Shown here one piece after another: positions 1 through 5,968 of a stretch of DNA of 44,967 bases. The notes under the pieces are model-generated. The model ran no database searches. It saw only the letters and a list, made by a program, of their open reading frames with translations, and was not told the DNA's origin. The stretch is from a virus: positions 1 through 44,967 of IMG/VR virus record IMGVR_UViG_3300027896_000075. The stretch is one strand, 5' to 3'. The translations under genes and the position numbers were made by a program. Position 1 is the first letter of the stretch. Every line of letters begins with the position of its first letter.

Positions 1-1143
1 GAGCGCCTGGTGCACGATGCCAAAGGGCGTCTGGACGGGAAGGGCGGTCTGAAGCATCCGGTTGTCAAAGTAAATGCCGCTGCCAGCCGAGAGCAGCGCG
101 CGGTTGTTAAACTCCAGAATCCGGTTCTCGTTAATGCTGATCGGGGTATCCCCCCAAGCCTGGTCGTTTCTGACGGCCATCGCCAGGCTCTGGATGCTCG
201 GCTGAAGCGTCTGGAAAAACAAGTCGCTGTTCACCTTTACTACGGAGCGGTCGTTGACCGGCCCGGTCGAGAGCGAGATACAGTACTGCATCGGCTTGTT
301 GTTGGCGTCGGCTCCAATCCAGTCCGTGCGCGTCACGGGCACCTGAAGGCCGTAAATCTGTTTCCGCGTGCCGATGAGCAAGATCCCTTGCCCAAGCAAG
401 GTGTTGTTGGTGGCAGCATACCCAAGCCAGCGGATGGCCCCCGCGTTGCTGGGTACGCTGAAGCCGTCGCCACCAATGGCCAGCGGGTTCTCGGTCACCC
501 TCAAAATCGAATCGCGGAAGCCGTAGGGCGCGCTGCCCGAGGCTGTGTTCCCTACCATGTCGCCGGCTGTGTAGGTGCGGATGTCCCCAAACACGTACCA
601 AAGTCTCTCCATGTAGTACGTCATGGCGTAGCCGGCGGGAAGCTCACGGGGGCTGCCCGTCAGCCCATTGGATCGGCGCAACGTGGTGCCATCCCAGAAG
701 AGCGGCAGTGTCACCCCGTCGCCCGCCTGGATTACGAGGAATTGTTCGCCCTGAGCGAAATAGGCGTGAGGCTCCGTCGCGGGCATCCTGAGTGCCGGGT
801 TGCCCCCGGTGAGGTCCACGGGCACCGGCTTGTCCGGGTCGGGGACGGCGTAGAGAATGCCGTCCATCAGGAAGATGAGGTATGGAAAAGCTCCGTTTGG
901 CTCATACATGATGCCGCCCTGGTACAGTCCCGGCGTCGGGAATAGCTTCCCAAGCGGCTGCTGACCTGCTCGCGGCTCAATGACCCCACCGCGCACGGTG
1001 CCGTTGACGAGCCAGGAAAGGCAGTTCTTGCCCAGACCGTTGGGGTTGAACTGCGATTGTGCCGTAGTGACGCTGTAGCTGTTGACACCCCCTGACCAGT
1101 CCATTGATCCGTCCACGATTATGCTCGTATCCTGCGAGGGCAT
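1..1143 (-). CDS. Phage virion protein (tail/connector, beta-propeller-like), C-terminus off window
   Basis: Reading the minus strand from the ATG at 1143 gives 381 codons without a stop to the window edge, so the gene is partial. The N-terminus begins MPSQDTSIIVDGSMDWSGG and soon has NGTVRGGVIEPRAG. This 'N...RGGVI.PR.G' opening is familiar from structural proteins of short-tailed phages that decorate the connector or nozzle. The rest is rich in short Gly/Asn turns and beta-type segments (for example GILLIGTRKQIYGLQVP), which suits a beta-propeller. An in-frame TAG at 1165-1167 supports the start, although no clear ribosome-binding site is seen. It diverges from the terminase gene with only 45 bp between them. 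The virion role is fairly safe; the exact position in the tail is inferred. Confidence 0.6.
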   Translation of the reverse strand, partial: MPSQDTSIIVDGSMDWSGGVNSYSVTTAQSQFNPNGLGKNCLSWLVNGTVRGGVIEPRAGQQPLGKLFPTPGLYQGGIMYEPNGAFPYLIFLMDGILYAVPDPDKPVPVDLTGGNPALRMPATEPHAYFAQGEQFLVIQAGDGVTLPLFWDGTTLRRSNGLTGSPRELPAGYAMTYYMERLWYVFGDIRTYTAGDMVGNTASGSAPYGFRDSILRVTENPLAIGGDGFSVPSNAGAIRWLGYAATNNTLLGQGILLIGTRKQIYGLQVPVTRTDWIGADANNKPMQYCISLSTGPVNDRSVVKVNSDLFFQTLQPSIQSLAMAVRNDQAWGDTPISINENRILEFNNRALLSAGSGIYFDNRMLQTALPVQTPFGIVHQAL

Positions 1144-1188: not shown

Positions 1189-3957
1189 ATGCCACAGACC
1201 TGCGAACCTTATCCGGGAATCATCGTCCAAACCACGTTTTCGCCTGTCGCGCTCGAAATTGACATCGTTCGGAGAGGCGGGAAGTTCAAGAACCGGGCGG
1301 GGAAGATGTGCGGAAACGGCCTCTACTACCACTTCAAAAAAGGCTGTTCCTTGATCTGGCCGGACATCGTGTGGCACCGCTGGAACGAGTTGGTGCTCAA
1401 GGAATGGCTGGAGCACAAGTACGTCGGCGTGATGGGCGCCGCGTCGTCCGGCAAGACGCACACGATGGCCTTTGCGCACCTGTTCGACTACTACTGCTTC
1501 CCCTACTCAACCACGACCATCGTCTGCTCCACGACCGAGCGCGACCTGGAGAATCGTATCTGGGGAGAAATGAAGCGCCTTCACCGGGATGCTACCAGCC
1601 GCTGGGACTATCTCCCCGGCCACTTGATCGAGGGCAAGCTGCGGATAGTCACCGATGACCGGAGCGAGGCCCAGGAGGGCCGTGACTTCAGGAACGGCGT
1701 TTGTTTCCCGTCGGGAACGCTAGTTGATACCGCCTCCGGTCCTCGATTGATCGAAACCATCCGTCGAGGAGATGCCGTGCTCTGCGCGTCAGGGATTGGC
1801 AGAGTTACTCAGACAATCAAACGCACTGCTCGGTCGCTCGTGCGAATTTCCACTAAAGATGGGAGAAGCATTTGTTGCACCCCGGAGCATCCATTTTTCA
1901 CTCAGTTCAGATGGAAAAAGGCTTGCGAGCTTAACGAGGGATGCTTTATGCTAAGCCCCTATGAAACGATGCGAATTCTGCGGCAGCCCACTGACTTATC
2001 AGAAGAGGTTTTGCAGTCTGTCCTGCAATGCGAAATGGATGCACAGCCAGCCGGACATTCAAGTTCACCGATTGAAGAAGCTGTCTATTGCGAGGCGCAA
2101 GTTTTTGAAATCTCACCCGGACTTTACGAGTCGAATTGCAGATCGGTTTCGGGGATACCGATGGTCATTGGCTGCCAGGCAAGCGCTTTCCAAAACTATG
2201 CGCGAGCGCGGAATCAGACCCACCGTGCGAGGCGGCAATGGGCATGGACCAACGAACCCAGAGAAAAAGCTATTGGAATTGCTCCCCGCTGGCCTTTGGA
2301 ATTACGGAATCAAAACCGGCAAATGGAACGGCAGTGGGTTCCCCGCGATTTACAAAGTGGACATCGGGCTGCCGGAATTGAAACTTGCAATCGAGGCGGA
2401 TGGATTCACTCACAACAATCCTGGCCGTCGAGCCAAGGATTTGAAGAAGGACGCATTCCTATCGGGGCTTGGGTGGAAAGTGTCACGATTCTCGAATCAC
2501 AGGATTTTGAACGATACGGAGGCCGTGATGGCAGAGTTGAAGTCTATAATCTCGAAGTTGAAGGGCACCCAAGCTACAGCGTAAACGGACTGCTCGCCCA
2601 CAACTGCGGAGTCCCTTGCAAAAAGGGAACTTCGTATGTCGGAATATCCGCTTTTGTAGGAATCAAGAACAAACGCCTTCGTATCTGCGCCGACGAGGCG
2701 TCACTTTTACCCAAGGCGTTTCTGGACTCGCTTTCCAATCTGATGAAGGGCGTTCCCGGCTACACTGACCGGAAAGCCTCTGGCATCGGCAACCCAGCCG
2801 ATACCTTGGATGCCCTCGGCTTGTTCTGCGAGCCCGCTGCGCACCTGGGGGGCTGGGATGGCGGCATTGACCAAACGCCCGTAACGAAGGTCTGGGAGAC
2901 GCGGATGCCCGATGGCGTGTGCGTCCAGCTTTGCGGGTCCGACTGCCCCAACATGGTCGCGCCCAAAGGAGCCGCGCCGCCTTACCCGTTCCTCATCACC
3001 CGGGACAATATGGAAGACGACGCCAAGGTCTGGGGAATAGATGACTGGCACTACAAGATGTTCGATGACGCGATGATGCCGCGCGGCCAGGGCAGCCGGC
3101 GCGTCATCACCCGCCAGCAGTGCCTCAAGTTCCACGCCTTGGATGAGCCGCTGTGGCTCAACGCCAACCGGACGCGCATCTGCTTCCTCGATGCGGCTTA
3201 TCGGGGCGTCGGGGGAGATCGCTGCGTGTTTGGCACCCTGGACTTTGGCGCTGAGTCCGTGGCCCCTGAACTACTGGGCGCGCACGTCGCCCAGTCCTTC
3301 ATCAACCAGACGCCGGACAAGGACAAGAACCGCATCATCCTCGCGCTGATTGACTTGGTGATAATCCCGATCGTACAGGGCACCGGCGAGCCCGCCGAGG
3401 ATCAAATCGTCGCCTTCGTACAAAGCGCCTGTGAGGAGAGGCACGTCCCGCAAACGCACTTCTACTATGACGCCGGTATGCGTACCTCGCTCGTCCAAGC
3501 CTTCGCGCGGCATAACTGGAACCAGTGCAACTCCATTGACTGCGGCGGCAAACCTACTGAGGACCAAGTAAGCGCCGACATTGACGTGTCCTGCCGGGAC
3601 TACTACTCGAAGTTCGTGACGCAGCTTTGGTTTGACGTGCGCTACATCATTGAGGCGAACCAGTTCCGGGGAATGACTCAGGACGTGATGCTCGAATTCT
3701 GCGCCCGCGAGTGGAAGCGCGTCGGCTCCAACAAGATCGAAGTCGAGTCCAAGGAAGAGTTGAAGAAGAAGACGGGCCGGTCACCGGACCTGGCCGATGC
3801 GCTGGCCATCGGCGTCTTTGGCGCCCGCCAAAAGGGTTTTGTTATCAAGCGGCTGGGCAACGCTCGCAAGGATAAGAACGACAATGCCTGGCAGAGAGAA
3901 CTGATCCGGCAGGCGCGCCTCATTTATCAATCAAGTCAGCTTGACCACGCCGTTTAA
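1189..3957 (+). CDS. terL: Terminase large subunit precursor interrupted by an intein
   Basis: The 922-codon frame encodes the DNA-packaging motor ATPase/nuclease, about 621 residues once the 301-residue intein is removed. The Walker A motif GAASSGKT is at residues 83-90. Walker B is RICADEA, with D502 and E503 in precursor numbering. The RNase H-like nuclease domain follows: FLDAAYRGVGGDRC near 665-680, YYDAGMRTS in the middle, and the last acidic motif GRSPDLADALA near 863. The intein lies between Walker A and Walker B, joining GV to CGVPCKKG, so packaging activity should need splicing. Upstream there is only a purine-rich stretch (AAGAGAAAAGCA) before the ATG. An HNH gene follows 123 bp downstream. 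No small terminase was identified in this window. Confidence 0.93.
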   Translation: MPQTCEPYPGIIVQTTFSPVALEIDIVRRGGKFKNRAGKMCGNGLYYHFKKGCSLIWPDIVWHRWNELVLKEWLEHKYVGVMGAASSGKTHTMAFAHLFDYYCFPYSTTTIVCSTTERDLENRIWGEMKRLHRDATSRWDYLPGHLIEGKLRIVTDDRSEAQEGRDFRNGVCFPSGTLVDTASGPRLIETIRRGDAVLCASGIGRVTQTIKRTARSLVRISTKDGRSICCTPEHPFFTQFRWKKACELNEGCFMLSPYETMRILRQPTDLSEEVLQSVLQCEMDAQPAGHSSSPIEEAVYCEAQVFEISPGLYESNCRSVSGIPMVIGCQASAFQNYARARNQTHRARRQWAWTNEPREKAIGIAPRWPLELRNQNRQMERQWVPRDLQSGHRAAGIETCNRGGWIHSQQSWPSSQGFEEGRIPIGAWVESVTILESQDFERYGGRDGRVEVYNLEVEGHPSYSVNGLLAHNCGVPCKKGTSYVGISAFVGIKNKRLRICADEASLLPKAFLDSLSNLMKGVPGYTDRKASGIGNPADTLDALGLFCEPAAHLGGWDGGIDQTPVTKVWETRMPDGVCVQLCGSDCPNMVAPKGAAPPYPFLITRDNMEDDAKVWGIDDWHYKMFDDAMMPRGQGSRRVITRQQCLKFHALDEPLWLNANRTRICFLDAAYRGVGGDRCVFGTLDFGAESVAPELLGAHVAQSFINQTPDKDKNRIILALIDLVIIPIVQGTGEPAEDQIVAFVQSACEERHVPQTHFYYDAGMRTSLVQAFARHNWNQCNSIDCGGKPTEDQVSADIDVSCRDYYSKFVTQLWFDVRYIIEANQFRGMTQDVMLEFCAREWKRVGSNKIEVESKEELKKKTGRSPDLADALAIGVFGARQKGFVIKRLGNARKDKNDNAWQRELIRQARLIYQSSQLDHAV
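1702..2604 (+). other. Intein in the terminase (C172 to N472 of the precursor)
   Basis: This is a protein-splicing element. The N-terminal block is CFPSGTLVDTASGPRLIETI, starting with the catalytic Cys172. Block B is TPEHPFF, with the conserved Thr and His. The C-terminal blocks are VYNLEVEGHPSYSVNGLLAHN, ending in Asn472, and the +1 extein residue is Cys473. All residues expected for a splicing-competent class 1 intein are present. Between the half-domains (about residues 258-420) the intein frame stays open but has no LAGLIDADG, HNH or other endonuclease motif. The same DNA carries an endonuclease gene in the +1 frame. The stretch looks poorer in GC than the flanking terminase, consistent with recent acquisition. 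Confidence 0.92.
1961..2584 (+). CDS. Vsr/EDxHD-like homing endonuclease nested out of frame in the intein
   Basis: This is a 207-residue protein in the +1 frame relative to the terminase/intein. It starts with a probable zinc finger (C4, C7, C18, C22), then a basic linker with NUMOD3-like helices (about 35-85). The PD-(D/E)XK/Vsr-like domain has PEKKLLELL (E101), YKVDIG (D134), KLAIEADGFTH (E145, D147, H151), an Asp-rich helix (D160, D164) and GWKVSRFSN (171-179). This pattern matches DUF559/Vsr-type and EDxHD homing enzymes. An in-frame TAA at 1952-1954 limits the start; ATG 1961 is the first candidate and has no good Shine-Dalgarno. The gene ends 20 nt before the intein's last Asn codon. 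It probably drives homing of the intein. Confidence 0.88.
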   Translation: MKRCEFCGSPLTYQKRFCSLSCNAKWMHSQPDIQVHRLKKLSIARRKFLKSHPDFTSRIADRFRGYRWSLAARQALSKTMRERGIRPTVRGGNGHGPTNPEKKLLELLPAGLWNYGIKTGKWNGSGFPAIYKVDIGLPELKLAIEADGFTHNNPGRRAKDLKKDAFLSGLGWKVSRFSNHRILNDTEAVMAELKSIISKLKGTQATA

Positions 3958-4080
3958 TTGTCGGATACTGTGGTCGCCTTAACGTGGCTTGAAGCATGAC
4001 AACACAGATTTCACAGCCCCTTGCTGATTGCGGCCAATCATGCGCCGACGTTACTTTCCGCTTGGGGCTGTTCTCCTTGA
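3958..4080. other. Spacer between terminase and HNH gene
   Basis: These 123 bp separate the terminase stop from the HNH start. I see no convincing promoter, terminator or small gene. An in-frame TGA lies directly before the HNH start codon. Confidence 0.5.
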
Positions 4081-4563
4081 ATGAAAACGATTCCCCTCTC
4101 TCGTGGGCTTTTTGCTTTGGTTGATGATTGCGACTTTGACTTTCTGAACCGGTGGAAATGGTATGCGTGGACCAACGGGAAGATTTTCTATGCAGTGCGT
4201 GCGGGCAAACTTCGGCACGTATCAATGAAACTGATCCACATGCATCAAGTGATACTCGGGTTTCTGTCCTGCTTTGAGATAGACCACAAAGACGCTGATG
4301 GATTGAACAATCAGAGGTCCAACTTGAGGCTCGCCACGCGGTCTCAAAATGGCGCCAACCGCCGTAAGACGCTTGATGCTACTACAAGCCGGTTTAAGGG
4401 CGTGAGCTGGAGAAAAGACGAAAATTGTTGGCGTGCAAGGATAATGTTCCAAGGCAGACCAATTTCACTCGGTAGTTACAAGGACGAAGTGGAAGCGCGG
4501 CTTGCTTATAATCGGGCCGCGCTCAAATTATTCGGGCAATACGCGAGGAGCAACGCGGTCTGA
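4081..4563 (+). CDS. HNH homing endonuclease with AP2 DNA-binding domain
   Basis: This 160-residue protein is a typical free-standing phage homing nuclease. The N-terminal segment (MKTIPLSRGLFALVDDCDF) is the usual lead-in of this family. The HNH core follows, with H55, then FEIDHKDADG (D68, H69) and NNQRSNLRLAT (about 76-86). The AP2 domain occupies about 103-155 (SRFKGVSWRKDENCWRARI and LGSYKDEVEARLAYNRAAL). The start is the first ATG after a TGA at 4078-4080, and no strong ribosome-binding site is visible. It is more A/T-rich than its neighbours, which fits transfer. It sits beside the intein-bearing terminase and meets the tail-fibre gene tail to tail, one base apart. Confidence 0.9.
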   Translation: MKTIPLSRGLFALVDDCDFDFLNRWKWYAWTNGKIFYAVRAGKLRHVSMKLIHMHQVILGFLSCFEIDHKDADGLNNQRSNLRLATRSQNGANRRKTLDATTSRFKGVSWRKDENCWRARIMFQGRPISLGSYKDEVEARLAYNRAALKLFGQYARSNAV

Positions 4564-4564
4564 G

Positions 4565-5968
4565 CTACACGGCGCCGCCTCCTAGCGCCGTTCTGAGGGC
4601 CTGGATCGCGTTGAAGAAAGCCAAGCTCTCAGCCGCAGTCAACCCGTTATGGATCGCCACGAAGGAAAGTCGTTTGCTCGTCCAAAGAAAAGGCGTGCCA
4701 TTATTGTTACCCGCCCAGACGTAGTATTGAGGCGTGGGCATAGCGCCCGGAGCGGCCGTGCCATGAACCAGCGAGGAGTGGGCGTTGCCTGAGTTGGCGA
4801 AATAGATGTCAAAGGAGCCGGACGAGATGCGGTTGCCCGAGACGTAGCCTGCCGCCGTAAGGGCATGGCTGATTTCAGACGGCGTGGTGTTGAAGCAATC
4901 GAAATAGATGACGCCGCTGTACAGATAGATCCCCACCTGATGGGCCGAGGCGTCCAGCGACAACAGTTCCACCGCCGCCTCGTTCACGTAGCTCGAATAG
5001 TAAACAGTGAATCCTGCACTCGCGGAGGTCACAAAGACATCGCCAGCCACTCCAGTTGTGGCGTACTTGGTGGTCCCGTTGCCCACCAGCCCGTTCACCG
5101 TCAAATCCCCGGAAACAAAGTTGTGGTTTCCCCAAGGGTCGGTTGACGACCCCACGATTAGAGGCGTTAAGGCCGCAGTCAAATTGTCGGGCACAATCGC
5201 GTTCATCGTCAGCATCTTTGTGTTCAGTCCCGAGTTGGTTAGAGAATGTAAAAAGATGGTCAGCGCAAGCTGCGTATTGGTGCTGGTTGAGGCCCCGCCA
5301 TTCGCTATCACGCGCGCATTCCAACTGGTCACCTGTGGTGAAATCTGGAAGACAATGGCCTGTAAACCGCCGTTGCTGAAGACCAGGCTGTTGAGCGTGC
5401 CGTCGGCAAAATACACGCTGAAGTTGGTGGTCAGGCCGGCGCCGCCCCCACCAGTGGAGTTGATGCTCAGAACGCCTGTGTTGGTCGTGAAGGTAACGCC
5501 GGTGCCCGGCGCGAATCCAATCAGCTTGGTGGCCGGGATGGTGAAATTATTCGTGGCATCATGCGCCGCTCCGGCTGGATCATAGAGAACGCCCCAAGGA
5601 AACCCGTTCGTCGCGTCATGGGCCTTTGTTGCCGCCAGTCCGGCGGCATCGTAAAGCACGCCCCAGGGAAACCCATTCGTGGCATTGTGGGCCGCGCCTG
5701 CGGGGTCGCTCAAGACCAGCCAGGGGAAGCCATTCGTGGCATCATGGGCTGCCCCCAAAGGGTCCCAGGGGCCACCACCGCCGCCTGCGCTGTTCAAAAT
5801 CACCCTGTTTGTGGCATAGGTAAAAAACATGTTCTGGCCAGGCACAAACCAGAACTCTTGAGACTGCTTCGCGTCCGGCTTCCTTTGAAGCTGAGAAAAC
5901 CAATACGACGGCTGTGCCTCAGCGACGAGCATGGAGAGCAGCAAGAGGATGGCCGCGACCTTCTTCAC
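4565..5968 (-). CDS. Tail-fibre/receptor-binding-like protein with signal peptide and repeats
   Basis: 467 residues, starting at GTG in a GTGA overlap with the upstream gene. The N-terminus (MKKVAAILLLLSMLVAEAQP) is a clear Sec signal peptide, unusual for a virion protein. Residues about 68-145 contain four near-copies of a unit like AHDATNGFPWGVLYD. The middle is Gly/Thr/Asn-rich beta structure (GVTFTTNTGVLSI). The C-terminus has the arrangement seen at the ends of many phage fibres: a laminin-G-like 'YVSGNRISSGSFDIYF', an aromatic 'YYVWAGNNNG' and a final helix 'LSFVAIHNGLTAAESLAFF'. Receptor recognition is inferred from this architecture. The signal peptide leaves open a surface-exposed or exported product. 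Confidence 0.7.
   Translation of the reverse strand: MKKVAAILLLLSMLVAEAQPSYWFSQLQRKPDAKQSQEFWFVPGQNMFFTYATNRVILNSAGGGGGPWDPLGAAHDATNGFPWLVLSDPAGAAHNATNGFPWGVLYDAAGLAATKAHDATNGFPWGVLYDPAGAAHDATNNFTIPATKLIGFAPGTGVTFTTNTGVLSINSTGGGGAGLTTNFSVYFADGTLNSLVFSNGGLQAIVFQISPQVTSWNARVIANGGASTSTNTQLALTIFLHSLTNSGLNTKMLTMNAIVPDNLTAALTPLIVGSSTDPWGNHNFVSGDLTVNGLVGNGTTKYATTGVAGDVFVTSASAGFTVYYSSYVNEAAVELLSLDASAHQVGIYLYSGVIYFDCFNTTPSEISHALTAAGYVSGNRISSGSFDIYFANSGNAHSSLVHGTAAPGAMPTPQYYVWAGNNNGTPFLWTSKRLSFVAIHNGLTAAESLAFFNAIQALRTALGGGAV
5549..5770 (-). repeat. Four imperfect tandem repeats within the fibre gene
   Basis: Four degenerate units encode AHDATNGFPW or close variants, each followed by V/L-rich turns and DPAG or DAAG. 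On the plus strand they appear as recurring TTCGT(G/C)GC(A/G)T blocks near 5551, 5606, 5671 and 5731. Spacing between units differs slightly and the third has an insertion (AATKA). Such repeats usually set shaft length in a fibre and can expand or contract. Confidence 0.75.

Follow-up and report, generated by a model that had tools for sequence, protein, structure and literature searches.

In canonical bifunctional inteins of the LAGLIDADG or HNH kind, a Hint domain and an endonuclease are combined within ATPase active-site motifs and move as a unit, as at the locus described here, but their endonuclease is read in the intein frame, whereas ours is a separate protein in the +1 frame. The split inteins of fractured genes (the gp41-1 type), reportedly described by Dassa et al. 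in 2009 with an EDxHD endonuclease between the halves, likewise carry that endonuclease as an ORF of its own between the Hint halves; they consist, however, of two pieces, whereas the present intein is contiguous and overlaps the whole endonuclease gene. In the HNH insertions of ShiLan, Pacc40 and Applejack, an endonuclease is likewise hidden in another frame of an open phage gene (PMC11855218, PMC12613952), but no intein or intron was detected there and the nuclease is of the HNH kind, whereas our locus has a Hint domain and an EDxHD nuclease. I-Bth0305I and other EDxHD homing endonucleases of group I introns share the nuclease fold and motif (3r3p) but are carried by introns, so that, unlike here, no open host frame is needed over the length of the gene. 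As stated in February 2025, homing endonucleases usually occur as intein domains or as intron-borne ORFs (PMC11855218). Our search of the full-text literature turned up no intein whose endonuclease is out of frame; a preprint from the group of the ShiLan paper, whose title mentions a non-canonical architecture of actinobacteriophage inteins (bioRxiv 10.1101/2025.01.02.630785), lay outside that search, and priority for such an intein is not certain.

The DNA analysed, referred to below as the window, is a stretch of 44,967 nucleotides from a virus, and it very probably carries a mobile phage intein overlapped in the +1 frame by an independent gene for its homing endonuclease (HEN). The features concerned are as follows.

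1189-3957 (+): TerL precursor, 922 aa, interrupted by the intein (PHROG 2 terminase large subunit, 1.1e-8; intein-free homologues 62-63% identical)
1702-2604 (+): contiguous intein, 301 codons, at the site NGV/C...HN/C (Intein_splicing match)
1702-2031 (+): N-terminal Hint half with Cys1 and block B TPEHPFF (pLDDT ~98 for residues 1-90, 87-92 for residues 91-110)
1952-1963 (+): TAA GCC CCT ATG, a HEN-frame stop just upstream of the HEN start, as read in the sequence (stop-to-stop ORF from 1955)
1961-2584 (+): nested HEN gene, +1 frame, 207 aa, ATG start, TAA stop
1970-2026 (+): zinc finger of HEN, Cys4-Cys7-Cys18-Cys22, near-invariant among 65 relatives
2044-2451 (+): intein-frame linker, residues 115-250 (pLDDT ~40-58; substitution classes taken from relatives)
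2252-2566 (+): EDxHD/DUF559 nuclease domain of HEN, with invariant D134, E145, D147, H151, D160, R176 and N179
2452-2604 (+): C-terminal Hint half VYNLEVEGHPSYSVNGLLAHN (pLDDT 91-98)
2542-2581 (+): dual-coded block, intein block F VYNLEVEGHPSYS and HEN C-terminal SIISKLKGTQATA

A preliminary description, made from the letters alone, had placed a terminase intein with complete splicing blocks at 1702-2604; its coordinates were right, and the intein models of Pfam (Intein_splicing, 1.3e-9) and NCBI (the N- and C-terminal models TIGR01445/01443, above cut-off) both match. Hint blocks A, B, F and G and the nucleophiles (Cys1, His-Asn, Cys+1) are all present, with Cys1 at precursor residue 172 followed by TPEHPFF, VYNLEVEG and HN/C, and the TerL frame stays open from 1189 to 3957 across the intein, which is therefore not a pair of separate halves. 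The insertion is precise relative to two intein-free TerL homologues, L093 and L094, which read NGV/MGLPLKKG and NGV/MAIPLKKG and lack HEN; at 62-63% identity they are the nearest empty alleles found for this terminase. AlphaFold2 with the family alignment, proposed earlier as a check on both proteins, modelled both Hint halves with confidence (pLDDT ~98 for most of either end), residues 115-250 between them being disordered, and by Foldseek the intein is nearest to gp41-1, its best match, and then to other mini-inteins. The linker is a passenger translation of the HEN gene in the intein frame, kept open and not conserved as a protein. Adjoining the 3' side of the intein-bearing terminase lies a free-standing gene for an HNH and AP2-domain endonuclease (4081-4563, +).

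HEN begins 259 nucleotides after the start of the intein (1961-1702 = 259 = 1 mod 3) and thus lies in its +1 frame. The 207-residue endonuclease with a zinc finger and acidic and histidine residues that had been proposed at 1961-2584 was confirmed as an ORF, by its match to PF04480 (DUF559, 5.2e-12) and by its conserved residues, D134, E145, D147, H151, D160, R176 and N179 being invariant in 65 aligned relatives; a GGNG linker motif is present besides the Cys4 zinc finger. Its AlphaFold2 model, again from the family alignment, is well folded (pLDDT 91). A search for homologues of the protein in nuclease families was likewise positive, since Foldseek at E <= 0.001 returned only the DUF559 protein 3hrl and the catalytic domain of I-Bth0305I, 3r3p (E 1e-3, TM(target) 0.71). 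The DUF559/REase_MTES_1575 proteins (PF04480; 3hrl) are the closest sequence family of the catalytic domain but are without the zinc finger and GGNG linker of HEN and are not known to home. At its 3' end HEN runs over codons essential to Hint, with block F (VYNLEVEGHPSYS) and the HEN C-terminus (SIISKLKGTQATA) written on the common bases 2542-2581, an overlap that had been missed before; both ends of the HEN/intein overlap are truly dual-coding.

Relatives were gathered by tblastn in phage records and by scans of IMG/VR, for which HEN is a useful probe; a search of viral contigs with the intein protein alone gave no matches, because the linker is not conserved. There were 131 distinct loci with a complete HEN, and in 122 it was nested in the +1 phase of an open host frame in which the Hint halves were detected; the remainder comprised three split inteins with HEN between the halves (L170, L178, L182) and six free-standing HENs. 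The arrangement of this phage is thus present as described before but not unique: it belongs to a large family sitting mostly in the Walker-B motifs of helicases and terminases. Host genes include SF2 helicases (ResIII, SNF2 and strawberry-notch type), a UvrD-type helicase and terminases, and 57 of 63 delimited inteins sit immediately behind the Walker-B DE. The NGV/C site of the window is among the exceptions; in L001 and L002 the element lies at the TerL DE site, so the element has occupied at least two TerL sites. By these scans the family looks phage-centred: a scan of genome contigs, run with patterns from helicase-type members only, gave one convincing match (L090, a Polyangiaceae MAG) and two weak ones. 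The annotated records of five isolated phages (L004, L005, L006, L007 and L008) list only the interrupted helicase CDS, or a hypothetical or coil-containing protein, and leave the nested HEN without annotation of its own. Such nesting is common in phages, though annotation misses it, and it provides a large set of same-strand overlaps of ~200 codons; each pairs two functional proteins, and comparison is possible over well over 100 homologues, some from very AT-rich genomes.

Two side observations concern members of this family. In L022, a free-standing relative (4001-4654, 39% identical to the HEN of the window) lies directly upstream of an intein-free TerL, its stop overlapping the TerL start region. 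The host ORFs of L059 and L087 contain an additional LAGLIDADG-like domain near the nested-HEN intein, which is probably a second mobile element.

Long ORFs can be spurious, as in the window itself, where a 311-aa frame at 10-945 (+) is open antisense to the gene at 1-1143 (-) with nothing pointing to coding, and the +1 ORF might likewise be a chance open frame, or an in-frame endonuclease moved by a sequencing indel. The preliminary description had put the chance of a stop-free overlap at about 5 in 100,000; that the openness is non-random stands, but the 61/64 figure behind the estimate is crude, and a null model in which synonymous codons are shuffled within HEN, keeping protein and codon usage, serves better. 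With 2000 shuffles, the intein frame of the window had 0 stops against 9.4 expected, zero being reached in 0/2000, whereas the +2 frame, an internal control, had 11 stops against 10.7 expected. Across 72 distinct homologous loci, which are related by descent and not fully independent (most are 30-55% identical in protein), the intein frame had no stop every time at a mean expectation of 9.0, against 14.0 observed and 12.6 expected in the unused +2 frame. The avoidance is visible in the codons: a T-ending HEN codon never precedes one starting with AA, AG or GA, a combination that makes an intein-frame stop, and the conserved Tyr131-Lys132 pair has TAC for Tyr in 68/68, TAT being commoner elsewhere in these genes. 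Homology to nucleases and a conserved active site also speak against a chance frame. Loci with the endonuclease in the intein frame were looked for, and none was found among the 131 distinct relatives (0/131); the +1 phase of 122/131, isolated phages among them, means that the frame difference is not a sequencing indel. Shuffle null, codon avoidance and conserved +1 arrangement together rule out both chance ORF and indel, for which we see practically no chance at all.

A further question is how HEN would be translated. Production as an in-cis extension of the N-terminal intein half through a programmed +1 frameshift would suit the constancy of the +1 phase, and in many relatives the open stretch of the HEN frame starts far ahead of the zinc finger (median 32.5 codons). 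In the window, however, an in-frame TAA (1952-1954) stands two codons before the ATG, so HEN requires its own start and does not extend the upstream frame by frameshifting; an in-frame stop likewise lies within 15 codons of the zinc finger in 41/120 relatives, and the split forms encode N-half and HEN as distinct ORFs, HEN having its own ATG. SD-like sites before the HEN start in part of the family also argue against it. The window stop, the split forms and the start-site scan thus disfavour frameshifting as a route to HEN, and we hold it to be quite improbable. Independent initiation is supported by the upstream stop in the window, the separate HEN ORF of split relatives and the SD-like sites of some relatives. 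An SD-like 4-mer precedes the HEN start in 33/100 relatives against 14% of control starts; this enrichment is modest, and SD-based initiation was rejected as a general rule. No Shine-Dalgarno sequence is evident before the HEN start of the window, where a crude scan finds one for 4/47 genes.

Splicing, HEN translation and empty-site cleavage are the steps that we infer from these sequences for an intein with an independent nested gene. The terminase precursor would be translated straight through the element; the Hint halves would fold together over the long unstructured linker, and the intein would be excised (Cys1, Asn301, Cys+1), restoring TerL. The linker, being the HEN gene read out of step, would face the sole demand of containing no stops. 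Separate initiation at the internal ATG (1961) would yield a free 207-aa zinc-finger EDxHD endonuclease, which would cut TerL alleles that lack the intein, in co-infecting phages, close to the insertion site; repair would then copy intein and nested HEN gene as one unit.

Among isolated phages there are near-isogenic alleles that differ by intein plus HEN: of the Corynebacterium phages, phi673 carries the element and phi674 lacks it; of the V. cholerae phages, CP-T1 carries it and 138 lacks it; and of the Vibrio phages, 1.194 and K391 carry it and 1.024 lacks it. At the helicase DE/C site where 1.194 and K391 have the nested-HEN intein, Vibrio phages K389 (L123) and K459 (L126) have a HEN-less intein of ~150 aa. 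These observations bear on whether the element might be an unspliced insertion of the ShiLan type, tolerated in the protein, given that there too an out-of-frame endonuclease lies in an open host frame (PMC11855218). Our locus, however, has a complete Hint domain with all splicing blocks where ShiLan has none; insertion mostly falls inside the Walker-B DE/C, where retention should destroy the ATPase; and a HEN-less mini-intein occupies the same Vibrio site. We therefore consider an unspliced insertion highly improbable. In K459, a gene annotated as 'endonuclease' lies directly downstream of the helicase.

Vibrio phages 1.194 and 1.088 are 95.8% identical in the intein at the nucleotide level but 78.2% in the helicase N-extein, and this contrast (96% against 78% in the flank) indicates that intein and HEN move as a unit and is compatible with homing. 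HEN might instead act elsewhere than on the intein-free allele, as a free-standing type that hitch-hikes in a mini-intein with only incidental mobility; collaborative homing is known for T4-type HEGs, and free-standing relatives exist, some near intein-less genes (L022). Against this, intein and HEN form a precisely inserted unit that near-isogenic alleles either have or lack and whose similarity exceeds that of its flanks, and we regard incidental mobility as unlikely, with a small chance of being correct. Homing by the nested HEN is directly testable in the isolated pair phi673/phi674.

Selection was measured in relatives, the window being without a close relative that bears the same insertion. 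In the 1.194/1.088 overlap, 31 of 35 substitutions are synonymous and 4 nonsynonymous in the HEN frame (~26.5 nonsynonymous expected), and 30 are nonsynonymous in the intein frame (24.4 expected), the expectations being derived from all possible changes. The per-frame comparison proposed in the preliminary description thus revealed strong purifying selection on HEN in 1.194/1.088. Seven more pairs showed the same direction, and L041/L046 did not; in this last, recent pair (96.5% identical in nucleotides) 14/22 overlap substitutions are nonsynonymous in HEN, which may be decaying there. Taken together, the substitution classes imply that HEN is maintained as a protein, while staying open is essentially the sole constraint on the intein linker. 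Many inteins of this family already tolerate long unstructured linkers, which is useful for protein engineering.

The split helicase inteins of L170, L178 and L182 have an EDxHD HEN ORF overlapping both halves, and N-half and C-half each stand in the +1 relation to HEN, as in the nested forms. In a quick, midpoint-rooted tree they form one clade (99) adjoining the nested L160 (96), inside a mostly nested tree. This suggests that split inteins of the EDxHD-HEN kind derive from nested ones: stops accumulating in the linker would leave HEN intact between the intein halves. This offers a concrete path by which naturally split inteins may have originated. The arrangement had first been presented as a third one; the contiguous intein with a nested HEN does stand as a third way of joining endonuclease to intein, but it is continuous with the known split arrangement, given its split and free-standing relatives.

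A second class carries an HNH endonuclease on the antisense strand of a terminase intein, and it was found in the following loci.

L001, 3705-4268 (-): HNH endonuclease antisense to a second intein of this terminase, at Walker A
L118, 2423-3151 (+): member of the same class
L096, L098, L102, L104-L108 and L110-L112: further members

This class is unrelated to the EDxHD-HEN class, and the frame-nesting of endonucleases in inteins therefore seems to have arisen at least 2 times. We are inclined to think, with some reservation, that frame-nesting is general and repeatedly invented (at least one EDxHD invention in the +1 sense frame and one HNH invention in antisense), and that sense-nested forms are the progenitor of split inteins and of HEN-less mini-inteins, either of which would result when the overlapped linker gains stops or is lost. 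By scan there are 11 distinct antisense-HNH loci in terminases, with the site at Walker A, ...HN/SGK[ST] (HN/TGKS in L118). In 10/11 loci a single antisense phase, the same one, is open, with 0 stops against 2.5-8.2 expected under synonymous shuffling; in L108 two antisense phases are open, and it is uninformative in the stop test. The isolated Pectobacterium phage Abuela also carries an antisense-HNH terminase intein.
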